From Polymyxa betae (taxonomy: Eukaryota; Endomyxa; Phytomyxea; Plasmodiophorida; Plasmodiophoridae): a DNA stretch of 42,379 nt. The notes beneath the pieces were generated by a model. It was given only the letters and a program-made list of their open reading frames with translations, ran no database searches and was not told where the DNA came from. Below are positions 6,849 through 42,379 of this stretch, piece after piece. A program made the position numbers and the translations under genes. The stretch is from positions 1 through 42,379 of the forward strand of contig RBZT01000700.1 of assembly GCA_003693705.1 (NCBI GenBank), given 5' to 3'. How positions within the stretch are numbered: position 1 is the stretch's first letter; each line of letters opens with the position of its first letter.

Positions 6849-7122
6849 ATGGACACCATATTATACACAGATTTTCCACATTTGGTGCAACCTAGTCTAT
6901 CATAATGTCAGCTGGCTAGATCTCATACGAACAAATGATGATATCAATCCATATAGTGGCATCGATGTCCCAAAATCAGCAGGGCTTTTACAACTGCCAT
7001 TACTCCGAAAACAAAGCTCAGGAAAGGAGCAGTGTCACGCAAAGGTTAAGGATAAACCCGATCGGGACGCTTTTGATAAAACGTTATGTGTAGAAAACAC
7101 ATTTGTGAGTTTAACGAGTATG
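6849..7122. other. Spacer between convergent genes
   Basis: The plus-strand gene ends at 6848 and the minus-strand peptidase ends at 7123. A frame at 6817-7128 overlaps the end of the upstream gene and has no recognisable features; I read this as non-coding. Confidence 0.4.
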
Positions 7123-10100
7123 TTATGAGGCGGAGATAGTTGCGAATAATTTCTCGGCGGTTGTGATTTGCAGATCGATGCCAAGATCATCACGGAAAGC
7201 ATCTCGGACGTTTTCGGATTGGGCAGAACCAGTAACGAGAATCAAACGCGAAGATTCGGTGGAAAACAACGGAGCCACGTATTTGCTCAAAGCATCATGT
7301 AGATCATTTACCGAAACAAGTTGAATCTGAAAAAAGAAGCCATACTTTAATGGGGACGAATGACAATTATTTCACAAAAACCCGATTGTCAAGCCTTGGA
7401 TGAAAGATCACATTAAAGCGAAAGGACGGCGAAATAACAAGAGAAACGGGGCGCAGATTGCAAACAGAAGACAAAATGAGAGGGAATCTGCGTACCTGTT
7501 CTAATAAACATTTCTGGTAGTCGTCACCGACGCCACGAAGAGTATTGTCTAGGTGTTGATGAGCGGCCGAAACGTGATTGTCACATTGCCTATGAATGTT
7601 GCACTCAGAACAAAAACAGAATATCTCAGAATAAGCAACACTTCGGAAATGTTCGGAAAAAGTCAAATCGAAAAAGTGAAAACAATCCTCACGAGATAAT
7701 GGAGAATGAGAGTGACGAACGTGCAGCTTCAACTGAGGCCGAGGTGAACGCTTCTGATCCACCGCTCAAAAGTTCCTCAACGACAGCACGGGCTTCAGCA
7801 TACGCGGCGGCCGGATTTGTAGCACGATGGACGCTGCACGAGACCAGCCCGGATTCGAAGTCCGCCGACATACCGTAGCTGTAACTAAGCCCGGCACCGC
7901 GGATTCGCTTCCAGAGCGGGCCTTCGGTCGCGGTCAGATACTCGAGTACCAAACGGACCGCGGGCACAACCGTACTGGACCACGAAGTCGGGACCAGCTT
8001 CGCTGTGAGACGTTCAGGAGATCTTGGCAGAAACGCTGCAGCATGACGTACCGGTGCGAGTTAGATAGGCTGAGTCGAGACCAGCGACAGTAACATATAG
8101 ATGAGCAGGGACAGACGTTGACTTTTGAAACTATTAATAAGCAGAAAAAAAGTGAAAAACTTTCAGGAAAGGCTTTACAAAATAAAGGATAAGATACAGC
8201 TTCCAAACGACAGACAATAAATGAAGGCTGAAACAATTGAGAGCCATGCAGTAGGGAACTATGTTCAGTTAACAGCATACCAGTTCTGTATACTTGCTAA
8301 CGAATGGGAAGGGATCCTCGGTCTTTTCAATTTTTGCATCTAAATCATCGAGGCATATAATCAGCAACGGCAGAAAAAAATCCTACAACTAAGCCCAGCA
8401 TACCTTGAAAAGCGGCACGTATTGGACCTGTAACATCGGTGTATTGCGAGCTATCGAGAATAACTTGGAAGGCCGGAGTCTGGGCCAGCACCTCTTGCAC
8501 GCGATGCAGAGCGGGAATGACTTCGGATAGGTCGGGCTTTTCCAGGATCTCCGACAGAAACGATTCCTGTGGCGATATAGATTTGGATAAATGATCAGGG
8601 CAACAGCAGAGAGCAGACCTGGCGAAATGGAGAAAGTATGACATGATTGCAGGAAGATGAATAGACAGAGAGGTGAGAGGCAGCGCCCAACACTCGATCG
8701 CCTTTCCGCTTCAGTGCCGCAATCGAGCTGTGCGTTAAGAGTAAGAAATTGCAGAGACGGTAATCAAACAGGTGAAGAAAAGCAAAAGAGCTTGAACAGA
8801 TACATTTTGGGATACTTCGCAAATAAACTTAGTTTTGTTAAATCTAACAAACAATAGCTTATTGAACAAAGAAAGAGCGGAATCGTCAACCGTTGGAGCA
8901 TGAAATGAAAAAACAATACACGTATTCGAATGAACGTACTTGTAAAGACGATTGCAGACCGAGCGTATACGGTCTTCGGTGAAAACGACACCGGTTAGGA
9001 CTGCAGCAAGCGATCAGAGGCCATAATACAAATTCTGAGCATTTACAAGTCCGCATCCAGTTGAGACAATCGACATAACGCTCTGCAGGCATTTTCAGTG
9101 AGATCTGGAACAGTTGCGGGAACGATCCACACGAGAAGCATGCTGCATACATATGAGAGTGAAAACTAAGCGCCGAACAAAACAGGGGGAGCAAGCCCAA
9201 CTAGAAAAACGAAAGTAAAGTCCAACCGAACATAAAGAAGATTGATGACTGAAAAATCAACCGATTCGGCAACAAGCCCCAGAAAACAATTGCAATGAGA
9301 AGAGGGAAAAAAAGGAGCGTATGTCGCATCAACATGAGAAAACAAATGGACAAAACCGCAAAAAAGGGAACTGATGACTGAGAAAATGCAAAAAATGCCG
9401 AAAATCATTGATTGGAAAAAACGATGCAATCAACAGATGTGATGATTAACGGACATGAGCGAGTTCCAGTGTGGGAAGACCAAGATACCGCAGATCTATC
9501 AAGTTCAGCGATTACCTCGCTATACGATAGTTCCTGTCCAGTCTATGATTCAAAACTCGATCAGAAGGCAGATAAATTGCGAGGCGGAAACGAATACCGG
9601 ATAGAGACGAACGTTGCTCTCGAACATAAGCTCGGCATATAAATCCAAGTATGGCCGCAGATCCACAGGCAGAGCATCGGTGTTACAGACCGCACGGACT
9701 TCGACGAATCGTGTCGGGATACTGTCGATCTGCACTGAGAACGGAAACTGGAACAGCGTGACGGTCCTGAGAGGGCGCGTGACGGATCGGTCCAGGTTGG
9801 TAACCGACTCAATATCGATCATGGAGATCTGGAAAACTGCTCAGTTAAGAGGCGGAGCAGTATGATCGGGTCATGGTTACATCGCCGAGATTCGGGACCC
9901 GAAATGATTCTATGAGAGAGGCCGGCGCCGGGACGTTATTGGCTTGTTCGGCACGCTGCAGCGCCAGGCCGCATGATACCAGAGCATCTGGGCCAAGAGC
10001 TGCAATCTGTGCATGAACTCGTTCATTCTCGGATAGCGTCAATTCCGCATCCAGAGCTGAAAACAAGTTCAATGGTAGCAGTACGGCGTTCGAAGAAAGA

Positions 10101-13100
10101 TAAAAAAGAATTAAGTTGAATTGAAAAGATTTGAAACAAACTTAGAGAGCAAAGCAGATTTTGTAAATAAAATCAGTACAGCAGGATCATCTTCAAGACC
10201 GAAGAGAAAAATGAATATGCTTGAAAACAAGGAGGAAACTTCACAAAAAAAGATGGGAAGCGTAAGCTGACCGCTTGAGGGGCGACTGAAAACGGTGACC
10301 CGGGGTGCATTAAGGATCATAACACGCAGGAATTCGATCCAGGCAGCGACGTCCAGGTCGAGAAGTTCTGTCAGAATCTGGTCCACTTGCACCTCCGTAT
10401 CCAAGTCGGCGTCCCGACCGTAAAGAAACACCTGCAAACAGCAAACAATTATTGACTGTAAAAACGCCAACGAATTACAAATGTGATCGTGGATTTTTGA
10501 AGAACCTTGCGAAAAGAAAGCACAGAAATCCCAATAGAAATGTAACAAGCAAAGTGAAGGAACAGAAAGACGAAGAGCGAAAACTGAATTCTAAGGTTTA
10601 CTTCAATTGCTTTGCCGGCTACGAACTCGTGAGGCCGCTCCTGTACAAAACAGACTCTCAATTAGGGTTTGGTCAGGAAAACATCTTCAAGAGTAGCCCA
10701 CCTCGAGGTCCGCATAGAATTCTCGCAAGGTCTTGCCGATCAGCCGATGGACGCGCTACATTTCAGAATCAAAACCAGCAAATTATATAGTCTCAAAATC
10801 TCCAAAAAATAGACAGTAATAATGGCTCAAAATCTCCAGTAAATGGACAGCGATAACGGCTCAAAATCTACAATAAAGGGGCAACAATAATGGCCCAAAC
10901 AGTAAGCGAAGGAGAAATGCTGCTATACCTGAATATCAAACGTGTCGGAGTTTTCAAAGACATCTTGCAAAGTCTTCATGGTTAAGGGCAAGATCTGATC
11001 CATCCTGACAAGACTGGTTGAGCAGAAATCAGTTTCAAAGGTTTCAAGAAATTACGTTTCTGAGGTAGCGTCGGAAAAAGTAACGACTGAGAATGCTGTA
11101 GATTGCTCGGTCAGGTGATGCTCGACGCTAGTACAGTATGGCGGATCGCATTCCACCAAAGCTTGCTGGAGCGGCGAAACGGCTGTGGATAGGCACTCAG
11201 ACCATAAAAACAGAGGTCGGAGAAGAAATTAGTGAAAATTTCAAGAAAGGTTTTACGCGCAAAAAGAGCATACTAACTTCAAAAAGCAAGAAAAAACGCC
11301 AAAACGCAAACAAGAAGCTTAAATTCATCAGACACCATCTAACACAGAATACAACTCGATCAAATTGTCCGATCATAAACATTATAGAAAAAACCAAGCA
11401 AGCGAGCTGACCAGATTCTGACAGGTAACGCCAAAGAATTATCAGCTGCATTTTCCGACGAATGTCGACCCAGGGCGGACCTACACAGCATCAGTTTGAA
11501 ACAAAACTGAGCGTGTTTTGCTCTCCGTACCGGCCCAGCCCATAACCACCATCCCGAAAGATTCCTGCAAAACTGATTAGAATATAGAACTCAGAGAATG
11601 TATCAAGAGCCGATACGTCGTCAGTCGGGAAATAGACGATCTGTTCTGTAGTCTGGATAGGAGGAACGGGCATATGCCAAGGCTTGACAAAACGTGAAGC
11701 AGCGGCCTCTAAGCCTGGATAAACACATCAGAAATGTGAAAATATAAAATAAGCAGTAATCTGCCAATCCCACAGAGGACAAGTGAAACTCATCAGCCCA
11801 AGATTTGAAAGCGGAAGCCAGAGATAGAAAAGAGCGCAAGAGAAAAGAAAGCAGAAGTGAGTTAGAAGGCAATGAATAAAGAGGAAGGTACCAACGCTTG
11901 CGGATAATCTTGTTTTCGATTGGTTCAAGGGCAGCCCAAAGCCGTTGCAGATCGACAACACCAGTGATGATAAGTGTACTGAAGACAGTCAGATATCAAG
12001 ACAGAAAATGTTTGCGATTTTAGCACAGGTTCTCCGGTCGGTAGTATTCTGCATGATACTTGCGAATTGTATCAATCGTCAGATGACGTAGTTCGTGTAG
12101 CATACCACCAGTCTCGGAAGAGTAACCTTTCATCGAAATTAGAAATACTGATCTTGGATTGAAACGAATTGCTGAAGAGAAGCGGAGAAACGCAATAGTG
12201 CTCAAAAAATATCAACGTTGTTGGCTAAATGTTATTCAAGCGATCCAGCAGAAATATCGTTCATACAAACATAGAAAATATAATCGACGAACAATATTAG
12301 AGCGGCAGCGAACACGAAAGGTTGAGAACGAACCGACCATGTTTCGGAAAGCAGAGACGACGCAAGGCCAGCATGACACGGGACATGGCGGTATTTTCCC
12401 GAGCTTGCATCTCACAGTAGACGACACCGGCGCTGATGATAAAGCTCAATGAGAAATAGGTTGGCTGATAAGTGTTGGCTCACTCGGTGCCGGAGTCGGT
12501 GATATGGTGCACTTCGGTCACGAACCCGCTGTCGGTTAACGTCGGGAAAAGAGCATGATCCAGATAGACGGGGATTAGCGCCAGAAAACCGTCCTGGCCC
12601 GCCGTGGTCAACGTATATGCAGTGTGATCCACGTCCGTCCAGGCATTGGTTCCTAAGAAACAAAAATCAGCGCATTGAGATCATATCAAAGCTGGCATCA
12701 AGGATAAGCACGATGTGGAAAACGGAAACAGTAAGTCAGATGGGAAAAAATAAGATAAAGTTCAGAAAAGGAAGAAAAGTCAACCTGAAAAAAAGACGAC
12801 CTTCAGACAAATTACGATTTGCCAATTCATCAAGAACGCCTTTGTAAGGGTAATCTTCTGATCTAGAAAGTGGGAGAATGAACGGAATGAAAGTTAAGAA
12901 GCAAGTTCAGCCAACCCCAAGAAGACGAGATGCTCAAGTGTATGTGGACACCTGACGAGAAGAATGTTATTCAGAGAAGCGATTCAGAGGATAAAAAATT
13001 ATCATGAAACGAATGGCAGAGAAAAAACAACGACAATGGGCCAACAACAATTGGACGCAACGAAAGCAAGAAACAATAAAGAAACTCAGAGCGACTAGGA

Positions 13101-13496
13101 GGAAGCAAAGTAGAGAAACATATACAGGAAATAGTGTTAAAATCATTCGAAGGAAAGGCTCTAATGGAAAATTACAAATCCGCTACAAAGTTGAAATTTC
13201 AATATAAGAAATATCAAATCAGGCAACACTTTTTGATTGGCGAAAGCTGCAAACAAGCGAAATAGAGAATCACAGAAAACACAGATAAGGAATCACGAAA
13301 AACCTTACCCATCATCTGAATGCGATTCGGTACGAAAAGTGAAGACCCCGTTCACAAGCGGGCCTGGGATAGCAGATAAAACGACAGAGAGGCCAGTTGC
13401 CGGGCTTCGGTAGATCTGGACATCGGGAAGCGGACCATGGCGGCCGGAGCTAGTCTTGGCTGTGTGAATCAGCTCGAAAGCAGGCGCAGATCGCAT
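7123..13496 (-). CDS. M16C-type zinc metallopeptidase, about 27 exons
   Basis: Spliced translation gives an insulinase-superfamily peptidase resembling the yeast YOL098C / worm C05D11.1 group. Exon 1 (13496-13309) ends SDDG and joins in phase to an exon at about 12951 with PHTLEHLVFLG, containing the inverted zinc motif HxxEH. Next come DYPYKGVLDELANR (about 12862), GTNAWTDVDHTAYTLTTAG (about 12652), GVVYCEMQARENTAMSR (about 12437, probable third zinc ligand), GYSSETGG and YYRPENLC (about 12130), LIITGVVD (about 11980), VVMGWAG spliced to GPPWVDI (11563/11480), SPLQQALVECDPPYC (about 11190), FLYGRDAD (about 10434), LRPYLDLYAELMFES (about 9650), TGVVFTEDRI (about 9000) and, near the C-terminus, EGPLWKRIRGAGLSYSYG (about 7900). 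The last exon starts near 7329 and stops TAA at 7123-7125. Introns are short GT-AG, one only 50 bp. One or two small exons remain unplaced. The order matches the family throughout and no frameshift is needed, so it is probably functional. Confidence 0.85.
10792..10893. repeat. Intronic 34-bp tandem repeat, three copies
   Basis: Three head-to-tail units beginning CTCAAAATCT start at 10792, 10826 and 10860. They differ at several positions. They lie inside an intron of the M16 peptidase gene, between the exons near 10929 and 10757. Confidence 0.85.
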
Positions 13497-15122
13497 CGCC
13501 GAATTACAATTGATGAGGCGACCGAAGTGCCGTTGCAGATTACAAAACAGCCTCGAAAAGATATTTTGAAAATGGACAAAGAGAAAATGAGCGCACTTTT
13601 ATCACAAGCTGCCACTTTTCATGACTATAAAGAGTATAAATACAGTATTCATAATCCCTAACTTTAAGCACCCTTCACTTTAAGTACTTCCTGGCACATC
13701 AACCCTTGAAACCAATACGTTTGTATGTGGAATTAAGGTCGGTTGGAAAGGGGGAGTGAGCAAATTTAAGATATAGTGCTAATGATCTTTTCACTCATCT
13801 TAAGAATATGGCCTGGCATAGTTCATGTTATCGAGCCGCTTAACATCAGCTCTAAACAGTTTAAAGTATGCAGAAATCCGATCGAATTTGGAGCAAAGGA
13901 AATAAAGACCGACCCGAAAACCGGCTGGAATGTTCAGATAATGGCTTTGATGATGAAAACGCATATCTGTAGAATCTTCATTGAATCAGTTATCAGAGAA
14001 ATACTATCCATAACAAATTACTGATTCGTCATGAGCCATGGCGGTAGAAGCACGCAAGCACGGGTGGGTCGCAACCGTGCACATTCTTGGCATTTGTGAA
14101 GAGATGCGTCACAGTGAGGTTGCGACGGATCACTTTCGGATTCGCTTTTTCTTTTTCTAAAATCTGGTTCGGCCAAAGAGTTGGGCAAAACCAAGAGATT
14201 CGAGCTCTTGCGGGCAGAACCAAGTAGATTTCAAGTCTACCCCTTTGACCAACCTGACACAACTGCATACGCTTGGCTGTACTCAGCCAAAAGGTGTACT
14301 CATGAATGTCCTGACAAAATGCAGCGATTAGCAGTTTGAATGGCTCTCCAATGCTCATTTTGTTCCAGCAAACGTTTATAGCAGAGACCAGCAAACAGTG
14401 CATTTTCAAACCCGATCGAAGATCAGATGGTAGTGTTTGTATTCCAGCGAAAATCTCGCCCAATGAATGATTTCTTTCTGCAGCATGTAAGTACTGATAT
14501 CACAATGCGTCGAATGGACTTCACTGGTTTGTTTAACGTTCATGCGGTGCTGTCATCATCGTCAACAAAGATTCCGGTTAAGATGAAGAAATATGACGAA
14601 TTTAGACACGATTTAAATCCTAGACTCAGTTTGATTCAAAGTTTTATCCCAAACAGAACGGCTGCGGAATCACATTGCCGAATCACTTCCGTAATCGCTC
14701 AAACACCAGCAGAAATCACAACCTCCCTCTGCAGCCGAAATGTTTGCTCCATATCTCGTAGATTTTCGAAATCGCTGTTTTTTACAGGGTTTGCCAAAGA
14801 AAAGTCACTTGGCTGGCCAACATTTCATCAATCGGAAAAAGATGCGATTGCATGAGTTGACCTGCGTTAGATTCCAGTCATTCACAGCCACCATTAGAAA
14901 ACAAAACAGCTGTATATTGTATAACCCCTTCCGACCACCTATTGAATGACTATACAACATGACCGAAATGGGCAAAAGGGAATTGTTTTCTCCTCGTTAT
15001 CACGAATGATGGATGTCTGGTCGTTGCTTGGCGGACTTCCTCCATGCTGATTCTGGCATTATCTGGAGCAATACTCAAAGCTGATGTTCGTGGCCTTGAG
15101 TGAAGCGAGGAGAGAAACATAA
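13497..15122. other. No confident gene; weak open frames
   Basis: Frames at 13776-14024 (+), 14029-14463 (-) and 14427-14855 (+) are open for 80-145 codons, but show no domain, no consistent composition and no splice logic I could support. The tRNA-like stretch inside is listed separately. Confidence 0.35.
14179..14264 (-). tRNA. Degenerate tRNA-Ser(UGA)-like sequence
   Basis: On the minus strand an anticodon arm GTAGA-CTTGAAA-TCTAC (anticodon TGA, serine) is followed by a long variable region and a T-arm-like AAGAG-CTCGAAT-CTCTT. The ends AGTTGTG and CCCAACT pair at six of seven positions. Seven extra bases separate the T arm from the 3' acceptor strand, the D arm is poor, and the T loop has C for the usual first T. 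It is best read as a tRNA-derived pseudogene or chance similarity. Confidence 0.25.
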
Positions 15123-22513: not shown

Positions 22514-23352
22514 TGCAATCTTAGGAAATTATTCTTGAGCGCGCCTCAGCCCAAAAGAATAACTTATTCCTGTTGGATCATCCCAAAAAATAACAAATAG
22601 TTATTTCGGAAGCCCTGCAAACACAGAACGAGACAAATCGAAAGTCGTTATCAAGAAACAATACTGCGTGATGACTTTTTTGCTGACAGAAAACTCTTCG
22701 TAGAATGGATTGGGAAAGGGATTCTGTCTGTCGACGGATGCGAAACATCACTATTTGGTGATTTGGCTAAACCCTAAAACCCTACGCTTAACCGCACCAA
22801 GCAAACGATGCAGCCTAAAAGCATTGCAGCCGAATATCCACTTTAATCGAATGTCCTGTATTACCAGATCGGGTGTCAAGCTGTCAAAAATCGCGCCTGA
22901 ATCGTCGACCATTGTCACAGGAAATCGACGTGATGAACGGCGTCGCCTCTATGAGACCGTCTCAGGTTCGTTTTGAAAGAGGGGGCGATTACGAAGGAAG
23001 GAGCGGCTCAGATGACGATACTGACAGCTGTTTAATAAGATAAAATAAAATGACAAAAAGATGGACGAAAAGAAGAGAGATTCTCCTGAATTTCACGACT
23101 CACTATATAGCAATGATCGAGTCGGCACGGAAAGCGCAACCTCCTGCAATCGCCGAGCCGGTCGCCTGCGCTCGACCCTCTCCCGTATCCCCAACCCCAT
23201 CACACCGATCTGCCCCTTTTCACCTGAGAATCGTCCCAGCCCGATGCTGAATGGAATCGCTGGTTGGCAGCAATAGCAGAAAAGTCCGCCAACCCCGTGA
23301 CGGACTTTCGTCACTGCGTCAGTCCATTCTCTCTTCCGAGCTCTCTCTGGAC
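22514..23352. other. Spacer with short repeats
   Basis: AATAACTTATTCCT occurs at 22495-22508 and 22558-22571, a duplicated AT-rich word bordering the hAT remnant. GCTAAACCCTAAAACCC near 22767-22783 is another telomere-like patch. No gene supported. Confidence 0.4.
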
Positions 23353-24701
23353 ATGAACGCCGCCGCCATGCTCGTGGTCGTACTGGTCCTGCTGGGCAGC
23401 GCCGCCGCCGCCACCGACGACCCCTTCGACCGTCTCCCGGAGGCACTCGTCGAGCGGATTCTGGCCCGGGATCGTCGACCTGGGGCCAGTACGACCTCCA
23501 TGGGTGCGTGTGTCGGAGATTCCGCGTCCTGTCCACGACCACCCCGATATCGGACCTCGACGATGGACGGTTTCCGGACTCGGAATTACTCCGACGGATT
23601 CAGGCGGCGGTGAATTTTATGGCGGCGATGGCGATTCCGTCGCAGGTCGTCTTCAGTCCGCAGCGGACCGTGTCCCTGTACGACCGCCTCGTTGGCAGCG
23701 AGCATTTGACGGAGACGGAGAAAGCCGCCGGACTGAAGGTCCTTATTGACGAGATCGACGCGGATCTGATCACGGGACTTTTGGCCTCCTCTAAAGCGGA
23801 TCTGAAATCGGAACCATTTCTGCGATTATTTCGGAATTATAAAAAGCAGCTGGATATGGAAACAACATTCACGCATCATCAAATTCCTCCGGAGGTCATC
23901 GAATCGCTTCACGATGCTGAGTTTGAAACCAATAATTCCGGATTCTCCGAGGAGGTCGTAGCCGAAGTCCGTGGTCGATATCCGCCTCCATTCAATCGAT
24001 TCTTTCCGCAAGGACCTGGCTTTGGACCATTGATTTGATTCCAGAGACGTTCGCATCCATTGGGCGATCGCTCTGTCCTCCTGGCTCTGCTCTATCAAGG
24101 CGTCCGCTTCAACATTACGCACTTTTGCCATTTTGTGTTTTTCTCTGCTGATCAAGTTCCGGACATTCTTCCGCTATTACGTTCACAGAATCTGGATGCT
24201 CTCGATGTAATGTTTCACTTCATCGAAGCGAAAAATCTGGATCGAGTCCGGGCGATGTTTCGCATTCCCAATTTGCGCTCTCTAATTCTCACTAATTCCG
24301 ATTATTTCCAGAAAAAACTCCTCGATTTCTATCGTCGTCAATCTCCTTGGCGTGTATTCTCCATAACCCTACTCCGATTCGTCACCGAACTGCCGTTCTT
24401 CCCGCAGATCGCGAATTCCTCCGATCAGTATGGATCTACTCTATTGAGTGTATTCATCTATAATTGGAAGAAGTTTGATACTACAGATGATCCGTGGTAT
24501 CAAGCTCTATTCGATCTTATTCGGCCTTATACAGAGGATTTCGATTCCCGATTCGTCCGAATGGCCGCACAAGCTCAGGAACTTCATCGTCTGGAACGTC
24601 TCGGTCTTCCGCCTCCTGTTCCATTCCCTTCTAGTCCGGACGATCCGCACAACCCCATCACGGACATGGAAGATCCCCGATTGGAATTTCGTTCCAATTG
24701 A
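23353..24701 (+). pseudogene. Secreted F-box-like helical protein gene, copy 1, disrupted
   Basis: It begins with a clear signal peptide (MNAAAMLVVVLVLLGSAAAA), then DPFDRLPEALVERIL, resembling an F-box first helix, and VCRRFRVLST. Between ARD and VCRRF the frame must change once (about 23470-23500) without a plausible intron. The second frame (23508 on) carries SLYDRLVGSEHL, LKVLIDEIDADLITGLL and RYPPPFNRFFPQG, and meets an in-frame TGA at 24036-24038. The same frame then continues VLLALLYQGVRF to RFVTELPFFPQI and stops at 24701. The matching parts of copy 2 show that the pieces are one protein. It is either a pseudogene or carries two sequence errors. Role unknown. Confidence 0.65.
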
Positions 24702-24704
24702 GAG

Positions 24705-25867
24705 CGCCGAATCTCCGGAACTTTCCGCGGCGTCGAATTTCGATCGTCTTCCGGACGATCTTGTTCGAGGCATTCTGCGCTCGGATCGGAATCTTGTCCG
24801 AGTCCTTCCGCAAGTTTGTCGCAGATTCCGTCATCTGTCCATTCCTTCATCGATGCGGAATCCGCTATGTTTCGCGTCTCTTGAGCTCCCCGATCTGTTA
24901 CGAGCTTTGCCGCAGCTGCTTCGTCAGAACGTCGATCTCCGTCGCCTTTTAACACCGCACGTGATCGTGAGCCTGTACGACCGGGTGATGCGGTGCCGGA
25001 ATCCGAACGAGTGGATCTGTTGAAGATTCTGATGGAGGAAGGTGACCGCGATCTGGTAACGCGATTGTTATGCAGCGGATCGCAGCTCTCATCACCGCGT
25101 ATGATGGAACTATTTCTCAGCCAAAGGCCGCCAATCGATTCTGCCGCAGCTCGGCCTCCGAATATTCCCGCCTCTCTCGTTACAACGCTCGCGAGATTTC
25201 CGCTGCTCAATTCACCGAGTTTTTCTCTCAGGCGGACGTTGATGCAGTCCGCAGTCGTTTCCCGCCTCCGTTTAATCGCCTGTTTCCATTCGGATTCGAA
25301 TCGTCAAATCGTCGTTTACAGGACTCGTTCGTCTGGTGGAAACACAGCGATCAAGACCTGTTGCAGACGCTGCTGCGTCTCGGATTTCGTTTCTCGTACC
25401 GCGATTATTTCTGGCTTCAAGACGTCTCGAGTCTCTCCGAAGTCCGAAATCATTCCGCATTTGGGGTTCCCCGAACCCGGTTTTGCCGCTTTGATCGACG
25501 ACCTCCACCGTACCAATACGTTGATTGCCGCGCGGACCTGTCTCCGGTCTCCATTGATGATGGATTCCATCCGCTCTTGTCCGACCTCTCTTCTGTCCGC
25601 GATCTCGAACTTGCTTGCTGATGACGATCATCGGTCCCGATCTTCCATACGATTTCTTCGTCTGGTTGCCGAGATGCCATTCTTCCCTTCGATTGCGGCC
25701 CTTCTTTCCATTTCTGGAAGCGTTCTTCTCCTGAAGACCATCAATGGTTTCAGTTCCATTTCGATGTTCTACGAGCTCATCTCCCCAATTTCCATCAACA
25801 AATCACGCAATTCGAGATTGATTATGAACTTGAAATGCTGAAGCAGGATTCGAGAAATGTTCAATAA
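24705..25867 (+). pseudogene. F-box-like helical protein gene, copy 2, heavily frameshifted
   Basis: It starts straight after copy 1 without its own signal peptide: SNFDRLPDDLVRGILRSD, QVCRRFRHLS, then VSLYDRVM. The frame then changes to VDLLKILMEEGDRDLVTRLL, again to AQFTEFFSQADVDAVRSRF and PPPFNRLFPFG, again to RFLRLVAEMPFFPSI, and finally to NFHQQITQFEIDYELEM before TAA at 25865-25867. Each piece aligns in order with copy 1 (VSLYDR, PPPFNRxFP, MPFFP/LPFFP). At least four frame changes with no intron signals make it a pseudogene. The pair arose by tandem duplication. Confidence 0.7.
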
Positions 25868-32737: not shown

Positions 32738-35700
32738 GAGAAATGGGCCGGTATGACGATCGATAATTTAATGTCTGAGCTACAGACGGATTCCCAAACG
32801 GGTTTAAGCTCTGATGAAGTGCAGCGTCGGATTGAGTCTATTGGTGCGAACGTCCTGGATAAGCCCAAATCGACTCCGTTCTATGAGATTATGTGGGAGG
32901 CCATTAATAACGCCATCGTCTGGCTCATGGTGGCCGGTATCACGGCCAAGTTCGTCACCAAGAAGATCACCGACGCCGTCGTCATGCTGCTCTGTGTCCT
33001 GTTCCTGATCGGAATGGGAACCTTGCCGGAATGGCAGGCTACACGTCAAGCTAATAATCTCGCTATTGAGGCTCCTGGTCAAGTTCAGGTCCTTCGTGAT
33101 GGACAGCCTCAGGTCAGTAATTACACACTTGCTGTTTTCAAGATTTTTTTCTAATAATTTTTGCCTCATTTGTTCCCATTTTATCAGAATATGTTTTCAA
33201 TTTTATCAAAAAAGTTTTCAATTCTATCCAAAAAGTCCTCAATTTTATCAGAAAAGTTGATCACTTTTGATTGTCTTTGATTTTGTTCACAAGGTTTCTG
33301 TTGTTTCAAAACCCTAAACCCTGACTCCTTGGCAGATGATTTCTGCGGAGCAGCTGGTCCCTGGTGATATCATCACTCTGCGAACTGGTGATCGTGCTCC
33401 TGCTGATTGTCGTGTCATTGAATCCAACTGCCTTCAAATCACCGAGGCCGAACTCACCGGAGAGTCGGAACTGATCGAGAAATCCCCTGAGCCTGTTCAG
33501 GAGCCCGGCTCGTCTGGGACCTACGACAACTTAATCCTCATGGGGACCATGGTCGCCAATGGGGACTGTACGGCCGTGGTTGTCGAGACCGGAATGCGCG
33601 CTCGCTATGGGTCGATTCAGGATATGTTGATCATGGTATGTAACATTACTTGTAGGATTATCGGTTCAAGTCCGATCCTTCTAAGCGTTTTGAATTTTTA
33701 TCTAAAAAAGTTTTATTTAAAAAAAGTTTATATTTATTTTTATTCTTTTCACTTTTCAAAGGATCGCTAATCCCGTTCTTCAGAAAGAGAGGAAATCGAC
33801 TCCGCTGACGGACAAGGTCTCTTCTCTGGTCCTGAATTTCACCAAATTCACTGTTGGTGTCGCGACCGTCCTCTCCGCTACCTGTATCGGCCTGCGCCGA
33901 ATCCCCGACCCGAATTCGAGCTCGAGTTTCGTCCTGCAGAACTTGATGCTGGGTCTGGAACTCTGTATCGCGGTCATCCCGGAAGGCCTTCCTATTGTCT
34001 GCGCATTGGCGTTGAACTCCGGCATGAAAGCGATGAAGGAGATCTGCAACACACGAGCCCGCACCATGTCCGCTGTCGAATGCCTCTCTTCTGTTGATGT
34101 CTTCTGTACGGACAAAACCGGCACTCTCACCACCGGCAAGATGACGGTCGTGGGCGTGTACGTCCCCGGGTCCGAGTTCCGTCTCCTGGCTGATGGTCAG
34201 GCTGTGAAGGATGATATCTGTGCTGGTCAGAGATCGGTCGTGTATGATGGTCCGGAACTCGATCTGATCATGTCGTCGGCTGCATTATGTAATAGTGCCG
34301 AATTACTCGATGGAGCCTGGAAAGGACAAATGTCCGATGTTGCTCTCGCTGAAGTTGCTCATAAGCGAAAGATTGACGCCAAGAAGGTACCGTTTTTCAA
34401 ACAACTTTTCAGCTTTTCAGATTTTTTTCGATTTTTTTCTGAATAATTTTCTGTTTTTTTCTTGTCATCTCGTTTTTTTCATTCATAATATAATGTTTCT
34501 TTATGTCATCTTTCATATTAATTTCTCTTCATTTTATCTTAAATTTCATCATTTTCATCAATGTTGGATCTAACTTCATCTCTAATTTTGTTTTGCAGAT
34601 CTTCGATACAATCGCCACGAACACCTTCGATTCTAAGCGGAAGATGATGTCGGTTGTTGTTAACAACAACCCTGAAAATCCCATCTTCGCATCCATAACC
34701 GATGCTCGATACGTGGCTGTCGTCAAAGGTCTCGCTGTTTCTTCTAAACCCTAAACCCTAATGTTAATATCCCTGTCCAGGTGCTCCGGAGAAGATCCTC
34801 GATTTATGTGATGATCTGCGTCAGTCTAATGGAGAAATCCATCAACTGTCAATGGAAGACCGACACGACCTACAACGGCGTGCTCGCATCCTGTCCGAGT
34901 CCGGATATCGAATCCTGGCGCTGGCGTACCGGCCCCTCCCGAGCCGTGACGATCTCAGCCCGCGATTCGTCGAAGATCGTCTGGTGTTTGTCGGATTTAT
35001 GGCGATCGTGGATCCGCTGCGTGATTCTGTCCAAGACACCGTTCGCCGCCTTCATCAAGCCGGAATCGCGGTCAAGATGATCACGGGTGATTCGATCGGG
35101 ACGGCGTCCGCCATTGCCCGCCAGGCTCGCATACTCTATAACGCCGACCCGTTCACGGCCTGCGTTGAATGCACGGACCTGCAAGCGTTACGTAAAGAGG
35201 TCGACGATCTCTTCTTTCGACAGCTTCTCCTTCTGTACAAATGTCAACCCGTGGTGGCCTCCAACCCGGACTTGCTGCAGAATATCGCGCGATATCTCAA
35301 AGATGGTGATACTCCGGAGTCCGTCGGCACACAGTTCAAAGAAGCTCAGACAGAACTGGATGATTTCGTGGAACGGACTGCAGTGTTCGCACGAGCGCAG
35401 CCTGAAGATAAGGTCAGTTATGTGATGAGGATTGAAACCCTAAAACCCTAACCCTCTTCAGGTCACTATTGTCGAATCTGTACAACGTCGGAAGCATATC
35501 GTGGCCATGACGGGTGATGGTGTCAATGACGCTCCGGCGTTAAAGAAGGCCGATGCCGGAATCGCGGTGAAATCCGCCACGGACTTGGCGAAACGTGCTG
35601 CCCCTGTGAACTTGTTGGATGAGGACTTCACTCGTGTTGGACAGATCATCTGTGAAGGACGTCGTGTCGCATACAACATGGTCAAGGCCGTCTTCTGCAT

Positions 35701-36811
35701 GTTCGGGGGAAACGTCGGTGAGCTCGGCCCTTTCTTGGGTCAACTGGGTGGGATTCCCGCACCACTCCGCGGTCTACAGGTCCTCTGGTTAAACGCCAAC
35801 ACCGATATCTTTAATATCACCCCATTTGCCAACGATCAGGTATGACAAGTGGCTTGCTTTCATACTTTTCACAATTTTCCCAATTGCTAAGACACAATTT
35901 TGAATATATTGCGCGGTTAATTTTTCGAGTCTCACATTTTGCGCTTTCGATTTGGCTCTCTTTTACGCACTTTGTTGCGTTGTTATTTTATGCGTGGCCT
36001 TTATTTTCGCTTTCACTTGGCTTACAAATCCGCACTTTTACAATCATTGTGCGGTTTATTTTTACTCTTCGCGCTTTTTTGAGTTTGCGCGTCGCGTTTT
36101 TTTGCTTTCGATTTGTCTTACAGTCACGCACTTTTCTGCGTTTGTGTTTATCTTGTTCAATCCTTGATTGTGCTTGTTCACTGATTGATTCGTTTATAGC
36201 CAGTCCATGACTTGATGGCGGATCTTCCTATATCTCCATCTGCTCCAGTTCTAAAATATTGGCATTGGGTCCAAATTATTGGCATCAACTTGTTGACCAC
36301 CATGTTCTCCTACTTCATCTTACTGTTCGGCAACCGTCGTCTGACCGGAAGCTTTCTCGGACACGTTTCGGATCCTCATTCCACCTCTGCCGCCAGCGCT
36401 TTTGCCTCCATCAGTACTGCTGTCACGACATTCATGGTCGTATCGCAGCTGCTGCTCTCTTATACATGCCGAAATCTCGAGGGGTCCTTCGTCGGAAGGG
36501 AATTCTTCACGAACTGGCCAATGCACGCGGCTATCATCGGATCATCAGCATTGACCATTGGCGTGCCTTTTATCCCAAAAGTCAACCACTATTTGGAGAT
36601 GCATTCTATGCCTTATCTACTCCTGATCGTGGCCCTCGCATGTTCACCATGCTTAATGCTCGGTCATGAAGCTATGAAACTGATCAGGCGCCGCAATGCA
36701 ATTCGTTTCACGGATGAATCTGCTGTTCCTCCCACACCCGATCAAGGCTTATGGAGTTACACAAAAAGCGCTCTATCAACGCTGCGAAGATTGGTGAAGA
36801 GATCCCATTGA
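32738..36811 (+). CDS. P-type II cation-transporting ATPase, seven exons
   Basis: Exons 32738-33112, 33336-33635, 33784-34386, 34599-34728, 34781-35412, 35462-35839 and 36200-36811 join in phase and give about 1004 residues from the ATG at 32753, the normal length of type II P-ATPases (Ca2+, Na+/K+ or Na+ pumps). Motifs appear in order: GLSSDEVQRRIESIGANVL (N-terminal cation-ATPase domain), membrane helices M1-M2, LVPGDI and LTGES (actuator), IPEGLP in M4, CTDKTGTLTTGK with the phosphorylated Asp near residue 330, VKGAPE (nucleotide domain, restored only by splicing), DPLRDSV and MITGDS, TGDGVNDAPALKKADAGIA (hinge), then M5-M10 including LNANTDIF in M6. IPEGLP without LL after it resembles Ca2+/SPCA or fungal-type Na+ pumps more than animal Na+/K+ pumps, but the ion is uncertain. 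Introns are 223, 148, 212, 52, 49 and 360 bp. An N-terminal exon at 32031 may exist. Confidence 0.9.
33170..33258. repeat. AT-rich tandem repeat in ATPase intron 1
   Basis: Three imperfect copies of about 24 bases with the core TTTCAATTTTATCAGAAAAG lie in the first intron (33113-33335). Confidence 0.7.
33308..33322. repeat. Telomere-type patch before a 3' splice site (ATPase intron 1)
   Basis: AAAACCCTAAACCCT ends 13 bases before the acceptor GGCAG at 33331-33335. CCCTAAA could double as a branch-point sequence. Confidence 0.85.
33651..33692 (+). other. tRNA T-arm (B-box)-like sequence in ATPase intron 2
   Basis: ATCGG-TTCAAGT-CCGAT forms a perfect 5-bp T stem with a 7-base loop containing the B-box consensus GGTTCAAGTCC. 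No matching D arm or 5' acceptor strand is found upstream, so it is at most a tRNA-derived fragment. Confidence 0.35.
34744..34762. repeat. Telomere-type patch filling a 52-bp ATPase intron
   Basis: CTAAACCCTAAACCCTAA occupies over a third of the intron at 34729-34780 and ends about 18 bases before the acceptor TGTCCAG. Confidence 0.9.
35435..35455. repeat. Telomere-type patch in a 49-bp ATPase intron
   Basis: AAACCCTAAAACCCTAACCC runs to within 7 bases of the acceptor CTTCAG in the intron 35413-35461. It is the only candidate polypyrimidine and branch-point region in this intron. Confidence 0.9.
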
Positions 36812-37189
36812 GCACCAATACTCATAATTACCCAACTTCTTATATACCTTTCTCATTGTAGTTTTTCAAATACACTTTTATATCATTTCCATATCATCTC
36901 TTCTTGCTGTCCTTGTTGGCATGATTTGCTTCGGAAAAGCCTCGCTTACTATAGGAAGCTAATGCCGTAAGCTATCGGAAGCTAATTGCGTTTATTACAT
37001 TGTAGTAACTTTTAAATCAAGCATTTTGGGTCATCTCCAGATATCCAAGTTCTGAAGCTTTGTCAGATCTCCAATAAGAGGTTCATGACTTTGGAAATCT
37101 TCTGGTAAGTGCTTTAGAGAGGTTGTGGAATATGATTTTTACAGCTCTAATTTATGATGAATTGCCTGAAAGTAATATCCCAGTCAACA
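36812..37189. other. Spacer
   Basis: Non-coding AT-rich sequence after the ATPase. GGAAGCTAATGCCGTAAGC and GGAAGCTAATTGCG form a small direct repeat near 36953 and 36979. Confidence 0.4.
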
Positions 37190-37245
37190 TAAAAATGACA
37201 GAAAATTGACATCATTAATACAATGATGTTCAAGACAGTATAATA

Positions 37246-38213
37246 TTGGTTTTAGAGAAGTTTCGAGATATTCACTCAGATCAGATGATGAATTCAAATT
37301 TGGCTTCTTCACGCAATTATTCACTCGCTGAAGACACTCCAACATACGCTTCTGTGATATACTCAGACAATACAAATAAATTTGAACATAGTAATACCGT
37401 CCCGAATCCTTTCATAGAATATCTCAAAGACACAGGAGTAAGATTTCTGTATCAGGAAGAAGCCACATCTCTTCTACCTCATACTGGAACGTTATCAAAA
37501 TCTTTATTACACCATACAGATATCGCTCCAGATTTACCTCCTATTCTGGAAACTAGCAATGTAATTCTTTCTTATCAAGTCTCATGTCATAGAAATCTCT
37601 GAGATTTTCGTAATCAGATTGATGAGCCTGTTGAAACTATATACCGGAAACGTCCTCGTATTGAAGAGAAATCATCATCAACAGACATTCAATATTTCTT
37701 CAATCATGATGTTACTGATATTCACGACTATTTCAGTCTCTGCAAGTTTCTGGTGAATTTTTTAGAGCCGTTCTGTCCCTCTATATATTGACTGTAGATT
37801 AGATCAAAGAGCCGAATAATGAAGAACTTCAATCTCTGTCTTCGACTTGTGGTGATACAGATCAATGCTCCATGACAAACTGTCAATTTTTTACCAATGT
37901 GAAAGGACATTATCTGGATGTGAGCGAAATCAGACAAATCCGTTCTGCTCGTTGTACATTACAAAAGCTAATTCTGATTGCGAATCTGTATCGGAAATTG
38001 ATCTGGGCTTCCCGAAAATATGAATGGTCATGGAGGAAGGGTGATGGGATAGTACAGGCCTGGCTGATTCAAGTATGTCGTCCTGTATTACGATGTGTCA
38101 TGGAATGCTGTCAGAAAGATCTCCGGAAGTTTCAGACACTTTGGGGGAATCCCTTCAGTCATTGGGTACTCCAAGAGAAATGTTTCAGAGATGAATGTCG
38201 ATCGAAACCGTAA
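37246..38213 (+). pseudogene. Unknown duplicated gene, unit 1
   Basis: The first frame (37246-37602) meets a TGA at 37600-37602. The same frame continues RNQIDEPVETIYRKRPRIEE and FFNHDVTDIHDYFSLCKFL up to 37752. A 50-bp intron (37753-37802, GTGAAT...GATTAG) then leads in phase to IKEPNNEELQSLSS, LQKLILIANLYRKLIWASR, VLRCVMECCQKDLRKFQTLW and GNPFSHWVLQEKC, with stop at 38213. The matching unit 2 confirms the exon order. The alternating helical blocks recall a cyclin box very faintly; I do not claim that. The in-frame TGA suggests a pseudogene, or the start may be after it. Confidence 0.5.
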
Positions 38214-38228
38214 ATTGCCGATCAGTCT

Positions 38229-39118
38229 ATGAATCAGGTCCAAGATAGATCTATTGACCCTCCTGCTCTACAAACTGACCATAATCCGTCCTTAAAACGG
38301 ATGAAGATTTGTTCACCAACAACAAATCTCATGCTGCCAATGTTTAGCGCTCTGCCTGAATTTCTGAAATCGTTAAATTTTGATGTCGAGGAGATCACAG
38401 ATTACATTACACTTTGTGCTTTTCTGGTGAGATTTATTCATATTGAATGCGGAATCTCCCGCTCAATCTTTCATTCAGAAAAAGCAGCCTGATGATAACG
38501 AGTACGCGTTTCTTACTGATACGAACATATTGTTCCCATCAATGGGCAGAAAGCACTCTGTAAGAGACCCCTCTTGATGATGATTTCATATTGACCGAAA
38601 CCTCGGAAATCTCAACTTCGGCAACCACGTTACAGAGATTGATATTGGCGGCCAGTTTATGTCTAAAAATAGCTCGGGCCAAGATTACCGACCCGAAATT
38701 GAACATGAGACGTGAAGGCTGTCGTGATTGGCTGCGGCGAACATGTTACTCAGTACTTTCATGTGTTACAATATGCTGTCAGAATGATCTTCGGGTCTTT
38801 CAATCTCGATGGGGAAATCCGTTCCAGCACAGTCATTTTGGGGAGCTTTGTTATAGGCATAATGGCAAGACTAAACAGTGCGGATTTGAAACTCTCATTA
38901 TCAGTGACAATAAGAAATTCTCCATCAAATCACAACTAGTTCGTGATAGAAGAGACCATGCTCATTGCCTATTGAAATATCCTATGAAAGGATTTGAGAC
39001 GGTAATCCTGTATTCAAGTCTATTTGTAGCGTCTGAATATATCACAGAAGGTCATGTTGATGTGTATTCAGCGAATGAATATTTACGTGAAAAAGCCATA
39101 TTTAAATCCATCACCTGA
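38229..39118 (+). CDS. Unknown duplicated gene, unit 2
   Basis: It starts 15 bases after unit 1 ends. Exon 1 (38229-38426) ends NFDVEEITDYITLCAFL, matching HDVTDIHDYFSLCKFL of unit 1. A 52-bp intron at the same site (38427-38478, GTGAGA...ATTCAG) leads in phase to KKQPDDNEYAFL, matching IKEPNNEELQSL. A second intron, 38560-38635 (GTAAGAG...GTTACAG), restores the frame to RLILAASLCLKIARAK, then VLSCVTICCQNDLRVFQSRW and GNPFQHSHFGELC. The frame ends at 39118 inside the right inverted repeat. Every exon joins in phase without a stop, so this copy may be active. No known family; Cys pairs and WGNPF are its clearest signature. Confidence 0.5.
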
Positions 39119-39205
39119 TCTGAGTGAATATCTCCAAGATTCTCTAAATCCAATATTATACTGTCTTGAACATCATTGTAATAATGATGTCAATTATTTC
39201 TGTCA

Positions 39206-40394
39206 TATATTTGGACATTATATAGATCAATATCAATTTCAACAGAATTATTGTCCTGGACCTACTGGACAATGTCCTGCTCTTTCTGCAGTAAATTAGT
39301 AAAGTATTGTTCAATTTTTACTCAGCTCTACAAATTTTCACGCAAATTGTTCCAAACAATCAATGACTAAACACAGCCAACAATGTTAACATTCACATAC
39401 AGAATTCGTATGAAGAATATTTCACAGAATTATGCACTGTTCATTACAGGCAACTTTAACAGAAATCATCAACTACACTCAAATCACAAGTTACTAGATG
39501 CATAGTAATACTGAAAAGGCTGTACGAGAATTCGAACTGCTAGTGATGATCGTACGACCACGGAGTCGAACAAAATGTTGAGAGTGCGACTTTACAGGTT
39601 GAGGTTTTAGCATAACCGTTGCGGACCTTTTAATCTATAGTATTTGGAATTCACGAAATCGTTTCCACTTTGTATAGCAAGTGTGAAAAACTTCGCATTT
39701 TTGAGAATATGACCGCAAATCGAACGGTTTTGCGTCGGATTGTTTTGGACGAATTCGCAGATCGGAACTGAGAGGAAACCCTCCTGCTTGATATTGTCAC
39801 ACATAAGTCCATCTATAAGGAAAGCGATAATCTCAGTGGCATCGAACTGAGTGCCAAATTGCACGATTAATCGAGCTCTGTTACTGCGCATGAGATCCCG
39901 AAATCGCGACTTTTGATGAGCTGATTCAGGACCCTAAAAGCCACGTTTGTGCCAAACTATGGCATAGTCGGTTCAAATGGGAACGATAGAAGCCATTGAC
40001 ACTGTTAAGTGTGTCATAAATGGTCCCATGAGACTGAGCTTCATAATGTTCAAACCGTCGATCCATCAATCATCAGCGCCATCTGGAGATATCACTGGAC
40101 GTGACGAAGGGATTCTATCAGAGGAATGGAGTGCGGGAATACAGAGGACGGGAAGCGAGGAGCGACTATCAGATTGACATTCCATGAATCTACGAACTCC
40201 GTATCGATCCTCAGCACGCTCTTACAGACGGTTCAGGAATGTTCCTGTAACAGATATCTAAATAATTCTCAATTCAAAAAGGCCAATAATAGATAATTTT
40301 AATTTGGAGAAAACTTTGACCTGATGAGAGATGATTTCCGTGAAACTTTCATCGAAGATTCTCCAGGCTCCGTAGACTAATCGTCACTGACTCC
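39206..40394. other. Spacer with one minus-strand open frame
   Basis: No gene supported apart from the frame at 39607-39935. A short ORF at 39977-40177 has no recognised features. Confidence 0.35.
39607..39935 (-). CDS. Uncharacterised open frame
   Basis: Open for about 108 codons on the minus strand (first ATG at 39891), with a coherent globular composition: FRDLMRSNRARLIVQFGTQF, DATEIIAFLIDGLM, FLSVPICEFVQNN and FTLAIQSGNDFV. Alternating strands and helices suggest a real protein or an exon of one. A TAG followed by a telomere-like GGGTCC lies just upstream. No domain recognised. Confidence 0.35.
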
Positions 40395-41850
40395 GTGATG
40401 ATCGAATTTCTTCACTCTTCATTCCTTCTGATGGTCGCGTTCCGTCTCTGCATCGGCGTCGCCGCCGTACTGGTCCTGCCTGGGCTCGGCGCCCTGGTTC
40501 AGGAGGACGCTCTTTGTTCGATGCCGCGACTAGTGAGCGCCGAGGATCGAGCGGCGGCCGCCCTGTTACCGGACACGTTGGAGGTCCTGGTCCAGCACGC
40601 CCTCATCTCGGAGACGTTCTGCGATCTGGTTCGTGATCGGCTTCAGGCAGCGATCCGCAGAGAGATCGTGGAGCCGCTCTTTGACCCGATGCGATTCGAT
40701 ACGGAAGTAACGTCGACATTGCGGATCATGTTACGGGTTCCGGACTCCGAAAACGAAGGAGATCGATCAGGTCTCGTACGCCGATTGAAACGATTGCGAT
40801 CGTCCTTGGTCCGAAGTCCGATTCGCGATCCGCCACGGATTCCGTATCTGATCGAGACTCTGAAATCCTCTCTGACTGAATCCAAGATCATTTATTTAGC
40901 AGAAATATTGTCCGAGTTAGCGACATCTGCGGACTGGAAATTAGTGCAGAAGTCCGTGGAGTTCTTCATCACGGAATGCGATTGTCACGCACTCTGTAAT
41001 TATATGATGGGATACCTGTTAGGTCCGGGATCTGATCTCTACGGACTCACGGACCAGCTACAATCTCTCATTGTTCATGTTCTTAGTCCGCATTATAACC
41101 CATCAATACTCCGTCACTTCCACTCTGTCCTGTCTCGTCTCCAGCCCAGTCGGTCGTACTGGACCAGCACGGAGATTCTGGACAAGTGCGGACGTGCGCT
41201 TCCGCCCCTGCTCCAGCTGTATCTGCGCACCTATAACCAGTACGACCTGCGCGATCATATCGTGAAACGGCATCTGGAAGAAGTCCGTGCGGATCCCGAT
41301 CTGATCTCGTCTCTCTATCAGATTCGGAGTTTGTCTCAAGATCGATCTCGTCCTGCGCATTCCGCAGTTGTCCGTGAGCGAATTCCGCCGCCTCGCTCCG
41401 CTCCTGTTACGGACGTCGTTCGAGGATCTGTTCCCGCAGCTGGTCCATGCGGGCCGGTACGACCTCGTCTTGGAGCTGTTCCGACTTCGCGGTCTGGTCC
41501 GTGGCAACTTTCGTGTCATGCAGCCTGTATGGGCGTATCTGTCATGTTTGGTGACTATTAAATTAGGCCGTGGCGATATAGTTGATGGGTTCCTCTCCAT
41601 TCCGTTCACCACGACCAGAATTCGGCGCAACCTTCACGCACTCCGTAGATACGATCCACAACGGATATCGGGACATAATCGGGAATCGCTCGACCTGCTC
41701 TACCGACTGTTACAGAGCCGGTACGACCAGCTCCGTGATGAATTCGCGCACCTGTCGGAGATGCCACTGGATCGCGACGAGGTCGTACTGGACCACGAGG
41801 CGTTTCTCGCGGTCCTGGATGAGCCCCATCCGCGCCAAACTTATCTGTGA
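40395..41850 (+). pseudogene. Secreted helical protein gene with a single frameshift
   Basis: The first frame begins with a hydrophobic signal segment (FLLMVAFRLCIGVAAVLVLP), then LPDTLEVLVQHALISETFC, resembling the F-box-like start of the 23 kb genes, and long helical stretches to SSLYQIRSLSQ near 41340. From there the protein-like sequence continues only in the next frame: KIDLVLRIPQLSVSEFRRL, DLFPQLVHAGRYDLVLELF and LDLLYRLLQSRYDQLRDEF, ending TGA at 41850. One base must be skipped and no intron fits. It is nearly intact, about 480 residues, so a recent pseudogene or one sequence error is possible. Family membership with 23-26 kb is inferred from layout. Confidence 0.6.
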
Positions 41851-42379
41851 GTTGAGAATGCAAACCCTAACCCTAATATAGAATGTAACGAATCCGTGAG
41901 AATCCGATACTTGTCTCGCCGAAAAAGCGATTAGCAACAATTCAATGCATTTAAAGTCTGTCATACAAGCCCCAAAGGACGCTGGTGGACGGCCCCTGCC
42001 AAAAAGATCCGACGGTACAAATGTGAAATGAACGAGTCATGCAGAATGGAGGGTGAAATAGAAGTAGGAATGCCCGACGATCAAAAAGGCTGTAACAACT
42101 AATGAGTTAAGAAGTATTTCCCGCGTTGTAGGAATCTGTTGACAAACCTGCGCTTCCAGAATAACTGCGTGACCCTGTGCACCAAGTACTACTGTACTCT
42201 ACACTTTCTCATTTAGTCATTTACAAGATTTTTACTTTATAAGCGCGCGATATTTACTTTACCTAAAATATCTAAATAAATCTAACTAACTTCTTCAATC
42301 ACCTGTTTTTGCAAAGACGGTTTCCTGGATTAGCTATCTCAACCACTCAGCAGAATCGTGTTAAGTAAGCGATGTCAAC
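41851..42379. other. Downstream spacer with telomere-type patch
   Basis: AAACCCTAACCCTAA at 41862-41876 lies only 12 bases after the stop of the preceding gene. The rest shows no supported feature. Confidence 0.5.

Follow-up and report, generated by a model that had tools for sequence, protein, structure and literature searches.

A dispersed, exon-modular and probably secreted gene family in Polymyxa betae, with a degenerate member at a rearranged locus

Introduction

The closest described systems are modular families of secreted proteins. In the sections of PMC12503489 that treat them, the CCG class of Albugo candida is an expanded secreted family whose members often string together several short modules, with cysteines in pairs and a motif that is conserved, and the AvrSen1-like RAYH family of Synchytrium endobioticum is large, species-specific, secreted and helix-rich, with one motif (PMC12503489). 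The same sections describe (L)WY-repeat proteins of Phytophthora (PMC12503489); their tandem modules combine to diversify, as those of the family reported here would.

We analysed a window of 42,379 nucleotides from Polymyxa betae (assembly GCA_003693705.1, contig RBZT01000700.1, positions 1 to 42,379) that contains a member of a dispersed gene family. As far as the description of the Albugo CCG class in those sections goes, the family resembles that class in its expansion, its multiple modules and its conserved motif, which is CC.(N/K)DLR.FQ..WGNPF.H here and CCG in Albugo, the two being compared by description only (PMC12503489). The AvrSen1-like RAYH family, as described there, is likewise large and species-specific with one conserved motif (PMC12503489), whereas one to four modules lie in phase-0 exons here; the literal letters RAYH were present in 0 of 85 open exons. 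From these descriptions, modular secreted families such as Albugo CCG would be the nearest analogues, without membership being claimed. The (L)WY-repeat proteins presumably differ from the present family in both sequence and exon structure.

Results

The window carries one degenerate copy in a rearranged block

The features of the block at 34057-39299 are listed in Table 1. By our gene model, 37429-39299 is one degenerate five-exon gene copy rather than two tandem genes. The initial annotation had proposed two head-to-tail units 15 bp apart; the repeats are real, and a TAA at 38211-38213 does sit 15 bp before the next ATG, but the two units proved to be exons of a single gene with a broken frame. 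In other copies the frame continues through this supposed gap and through exon 3 up to the second intron of that annotation, and the TAA in exon 3 is, on this comparison, specific to the window copy. The shared intron position (after CKFL/CAFL) and the shared signature CCQ.DLR.FQ..WGNPF.H were both found in the two stretches, as had been described. The forward copy has lost the beginning of exon 1, including its signal-peptide-like start, and its exons 2 and 5 are open.

Table 1. Coordinates of the features in the rearranged block of the window
Feature	Position	Strand	Remarks
Flank common to the window and contig C359 (L010:1-2849)	34057..37188	+	3' part of P-type ATPase gene and DNA after it
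Inverted piece of another family copy (exon 4 end, intron 4, most of exon 5)	37195..37427	-	
Exon 1, 3' part only (DTGVRFLYQEE...ETSN)	37429..37560	+	tblastn to L035 exon 1; followed by GTAATT
Intron 1, 57 bp, GT..AG	37561..37617	+	
Exon 2 (IDEPVETIYRKRPRIEE...SLCKFL), basic RKRPR stretch	37618..37752	+	
Intron 2, 50 bp	37753..37802	+	first intron of the initial annotation
Exon 3, module 1, in-frame TAA inside	37803..38426	+	tblastn
Intron 3, 52 bp	38427..38478	+	second intron of the initial annotation
Exon 4, module 2, frame broken between about 38562 and 38573	38479..39001	+	two tblastn pieces in different frames
Intron 4, 46 bp	39002..39047	+	
Exon 5, probable module 3 (CLEHHCNNDVNYFCHIFGHYIDQYQFQQNYCPGPTGQCPALSAVN), stop TAG	39048..39299	+	tblastn; profile match to exon 4

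Two 245-nt stretches, 37183-37427 and 38972-39216, form inverted repeats with 83% complementarity. They had been described as enclosing the units; the gene copy, however, extends beyond them to 39299, and they are not termini of the family. An inverted tail upstream of a copy was seen at only one of the 39 other fetched loci (L027, a truncated copy), so the repeats are particular to the rearranged window site. The reverse complement of the left arm matched the window copy's own tail with 86% identity over 235 columns, which bears out the earlier view of this arm as the tail of an inverted further copy; it belongs to the end of a second copy that runs convergently to the neighbouring ATPase gene. 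This tail meets the truncated exon 1 of the forward copy at a junction near 37428. The AT-rich composition of the block was likewise recovered, with GC contents of 0.354, 0.422 and 0.375 in the 1-kb blocks from 37001 and of 0.443 and 0.502 in the two adjoining blocks.

The ORF of the neighbouring gene ends at 36811 and has a weak Pfam match (PF00702, under the cut-off); we take it to be a P-type ATPase gene. On contig C359 (locus L010) the same flank is followed by a family copy that has the same inverted orientation to the ATPase gene as the left arm in the window. The two flanks aligned in two parts separated by a gap, with 87.1% identity over 1943 columns and 84.9% over 915, and the duplicated stretch as a whole (34057-37427 against L010:1-3223) comprises the 3' end of the ATPase gene, the downstream DNA and the inverted tail at 83-87% identity. 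Since the window and C359 have at least 2.8 kb of flank in common, at least one duplication was segmental. Furthermore, because C359 holds this flank with a copy in the same orientation, the ATPase gene with its convergent copy is the common arrangement and the forward copy is the addition in the window. The arrangement still seen on C359 would thus have been cut into and then joined to a second, forward copy, and a scar left by recombination is the best reading of the window block.

Scans of the window for Rfam families and tRNA genes were empty. Elsewhere in the window, a class 3 lipase gene lies at 2274-3227 (PF01764, E 1.1e-22), and the part at 2692-3029 is 68% identical to a related lipase near the family copy at L038. 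The region 7000-14000 has a strong AT skew of 0.23-0.30 over 7 kb.

A five-exon gene with phase-0 introns

We compared 39 copies, namely 38 copies from 37 loci together with the window; the fetched loci other than the window numbered 39 (L009-L047, some overlapping), and the rearranged L024 and L027 were left out of the set. The alignments showed a gene of five exons with four predicted phase-0 introns, one after each of exons 1-4. Exons 2, 3, 4 and 5 were open in 23, 15, 20 and 19 of the 39 copies, respectively, whereas exon 1 was full-length and open in just seven, in part since it is split in a second subfamily. Every one of the 20 open exon-4 copies is bordered by AG on its 5' side and GT on its 3' side, and since intron borders are retained in this way, copying by retroposition is disfavoured. 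AG also precedes 22 of 23 open exon-2, 12 of 16 exon-3 and 19 of 19 exon-5 stretches. By the same openness test all five exons were unbroken only in L018, the source of three of the five exon queries, and in L019. L018 has no AG before exon 2; in L019, CG replaces AG before exon 3 and exon 5 contains an ambiguous residue. The family hits are thus a mixture of open and broken genes.

Exons 3 and 4, and probably exon 5, carry versions of one module

Profile comparison showed that exons 3 and 4 carry versions of one cysteine-bearing module, CC.(N/K)DLR.FQ..WGNPF.H. With profiles built from 6 of 15 open exon-3, 10 of 20 exon-4 and 6 of 19 exon-5 copies, exon 3 matched exon 4 at E 9.1e-28, so that the homology of these two modules is not due to chance. 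Exon 5 probably carries a third version: its profile matched that of exon 4 at E 5.5e-5 (probability 66%) and that of exon 3 weakly (hhalign probability 16%). The 10 aligned exon-4 copies have conserved columns such as CC.NDL..F..RWG.PF.HS.

The number of modules varies within the genome: some members have one, others three or four, and one exon is chimeric. L016 has an extra open hybrid exon with an exon-4-like start, an exon-3-like end and GTGAG after CAFL; L026 has a partial in-frame duplication of the module within exon 3; and in L050 the 3.5 kb retrieved contain a single module, preceded by a hydrophobic N-terminus and a basic segment. Because the introns are in phase 0, exons could be duplicated or lost without a frameshift.

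Exons are kept open while sequences diverge

Pairwise comparison of open copies gave a median dN/dS of 0.72 for exon 3, 0.69 for exon 4 and 0.78 for exon 5, with single pairs spanning 0.22-2.64, at median dS values of 0.34, 0.31 and 0.20 (15, 20 and 19 open copies). The suggestion of a fast-evolving accessory gene without a recognisable relative therefore came close: the gene belongs to a dispersed family with dN/dS of 0.69-0.78 and no named relative. Values near 0.7 also fit relaxed constraint.

The copies might be remnants of former genes, a decaying repeat that no longer has a function, a reading for which the modest number of copies with open exons 2-5 speaks. The stop codons argue otherwise. 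In aligned stretches of at least 48% identity we observed 0, 18, 10 and 3 stops in exons 2-5, counts that may be low where local alignments end near breaks; about 16, 128, 139 and 56 were expected at 0.15 neutral substitutions per site, and 5, 48, 53 and 20 at 0.05. In exons 3-5 stops were 7-19 times rarer than neutral drift of 0.15 predicts. In addition, the exon-4 columns are strongly conserved among the 10 aligned copies at a median dS of about 0.3. We therefore consider a functionless repeat very unlikely; on these counts, the exons appear to be kept open beyond what neutral decay allows.

A tree of the copies, which like one gene-model comparison took in 31 of the 39, was star-like, with internal branches making up 8% of its length and 6 of 28 supports at 0.95 or more. 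Two copies on one contig, L018 and L046, agreed at 95-99% of positions in the 200 bp surrounding the start codon and at 98% in the last 100 bp, with an identity of 67-92% between these stretches. The copies look mosaic from such patches, to which selection on short conserved stretches could add.

Copies are dispersed and mostly share gene-sized stretches

The family was found not at one locus but as 78 hit clusters, fragments included, on 56 of the 541 contigs of the 24.4-Mb genome, with local groups of eight clusters on C283 and six on C276; a genome-wide search for further copies had been proposed at the outset. Clusters were obtained by merging the places found by DNA queries and by a 3'-end pattern. 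With 40 candidates scored for each DNA query, the first stretch matched at least 44 places, the second at least 43 and the left arm at least 42, similarity counts being lower bounds. The 32-base 3'-end pattern occurred at 60 places with up to three mismatches, and the reversed-pattern control at 0. Used as a protein query, a distant relative hit at least 151 places (150 of 200 candidates scored).

The 38 other copies have hardly any wider flank in common. When the fetched loci were compared with the gene masked, 11 matches exceeded 150 columns, of which two were the same DNA twice and nine were short and 71-80% identical; the window was compared separately with the L010 flank. Upstream homology reached 0-100 bp beyond the ATG in 364 of 378 pairwise alignments and further in 12, and this conserved stretch may be a core promoter. 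At the 3' side the commonest end point of homology lies close to the stop codon (364 of 1,369 pairwise alignments in the 0-20 bin, the zero of this scale having been taken from an alignment end), and homology fades out up to about 275 bp past it. The ends of the stretch common to the copies are thus not sharp. From these comparisons, gene-sized sharing appears usual among the copies, plus one clear segmental duplication. Telomere-like CCCTAA words lie at or near the end of homology in L010, L014, L035 and L042 (copy 3' end); such words also occur in the window at about 41860-41876. Long exact telomere repeats were found on C64, C167 and C171.

A DNA transposon, or a gene borne on one, would be compact, bounded by terminal inverted repeats and spread in a single burst, and the initial annotation had considered a compact spreading unit. 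Such a unit would account for the dispersal over 56 contigs, the scarcity of flank shared among 38 copies and the inverted repeats at the window site, and the star-like tree would suit a burst. The repeats themselves, however, fail to behave as termini: an inverted tail recurs upstream of a copy at one of the 39 other fetched loci (L027), and the left arm runs on into the flank shared with C359. In addition, the copies have no common 3' end, no transposase or reverse transcriptase domain was found in the scanned exons 1, 3, 4 and 5, and stops in exons 3-5 are far below the neutral expectation at 0.15. A transposon is therefore highly improbable, and that part of the annotation was not upheld. 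At L042, a minus-strand ORF of 454 residues is reverse-transcriptase-like, resembling Penelope-like elements, with no Pfam family over the cut-off.

A different reading starts from a new helical cysteine module with environmental relatives, in which a founder with one module would have grown to one to four modules by phase-0 exon duplication, most of the genes then being scattered in one burst as gene-sized units. These units would extend from the core promoter to the 3' UTR and would have been copied neither by retroposition nor by a recognisable transposon. This sequence of events is made less probable by the window and C359 pair, which was duplicated together with its flank, and we regard it as unlikely.

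The proteins are probably secreted

By eye and by regular expression, a conserved hydrophobic N-terminus with an ATG was found in 20 copies, typically M(V/F)G(P/R)AI.FLILSLSEC.AAF, and N-glycosylation-type triplets were present in all seven full-length open exon-1 copies. From these features we infer that the family protein is secreted and would act outside the cell, in an effector-like or surface-variable, host-facing role. The conserved cysteines are presumably paired. The basic RKRPR stretch might serve as a nuclear signal or have no meaning at all.

ORFs next to family copies in L022, L026, L030 and L044 begin, as judged by eye, with hydrophobic N-termini, which would fit an expanded secretome. 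In L030 a minus-strand ORF of 637 residues starts in a signal-like manner and matches ankyrin weakly, narrowly missing the cut-off (PF12796, E 6.7e-6). In the window, an ORF at 40395-41561 begins with a hydrophobic stretch and gave no Pfam family above the cut-off, and 23251-25841 holds a row of ORFs, the first with a signal-like start, with FDRLP(E/D)(A/D)LV segments; similar ORFs lie beside the copies at L022 and L030. These segments resemble an F-box, and the two ORFs scanned gave no Pfam family over the cut-off.

A surface-variant or antigen-like family instead of released effectors, in which few copies are expressed at once and the rest serve as a recombination reservoir, would fit the mixture of open and broken copies, the mosaic patches and the local groups on C283 and C276. 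By eye, however, the exon 5 sequences looked at have no C-terminal membrane anchor, and the contigs with telomere repeats (C64, C167 and C171) are absent from the family lists. We hold such a family to be unlikely.

A family without a named relative

Profile and structure searches, which had been recommended, returned no credible named family. No Pfam family, including transposases and reverse transcriptases, was over the cut-off in exons 1, 3, 4 and 5 or in the relatives, and NCBIfam gave no credible match. The best PDB sequence matches (E 0.34 and 1) were both to a MAVS domain and were not credible. A spliced query of 482 residues found no homologue at E <= 10 in a search whose length limits exclude single-exon predictions. 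The exon-4 profile then matched three metagenomic proteins as distant relatives, P0006, P0007 and P0008 (E 5.1e-16 to 2.0e-12), all with TL(Q/E)(K/R)LILVANLYL and CC.N.L.EF..RWGNPF followed by a CPAGD stretch. They are 29-40% identical to the family modules and have TL..LIL.A.L and CC...L..F...WGNPF in common with them, but each shows one module.

No relative was confirmed in viral contigs, and a viral origin was rejected with two PHROGs matches at just E 0.25 and of no known function; a prokaryotic origin was likewise rejected, no relative being confirmed in prokaryotic contigs. A text search of the literature found no mention of WGNPF. AlphaFold models were mostly helical at low confidence (mean pLDDT 55.7 and 52.6), each module may be a small helical domain, although no fold is put forward, and Foldseek with the first model (pLDDT 55.7) found nothing at E <= 0.001. 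As a side observation, polyubiquitin, which like the introns marks this genome as eukaryotic, consists of 76-residue repeats without the insertion that would be expected in Rhizaria. On these searches, the family is new and without a named relative, yet apparently of an already known kind.

Discussion

Taken together, the data make it likely that the window holds a degenerate copy from a family that is lineage-specific, exon-modular, effector-like and probably secreted, and that diversifies by exon duplication and recombination. A complete gene product would have a signal-peptide-type hydrophobic N-terminus, a basic RKRPR-like stretch and one to four cysteine-bearing modules. Diversity would arise by duplication and loss of exons, together with patchy recombination between copies.

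The transposon reading, though tempting, is corrected, and the locus becomes a clear example of an exon-modular, probably secreted family. What surprises most is that phase-0 exon modularity goes together with sharing that is mostly gene-sized, and why so little flank is shared along with the genes is a puzzle that can be tested. Should the modules face a host, an unnamed module family would join the candidates for host interaction.
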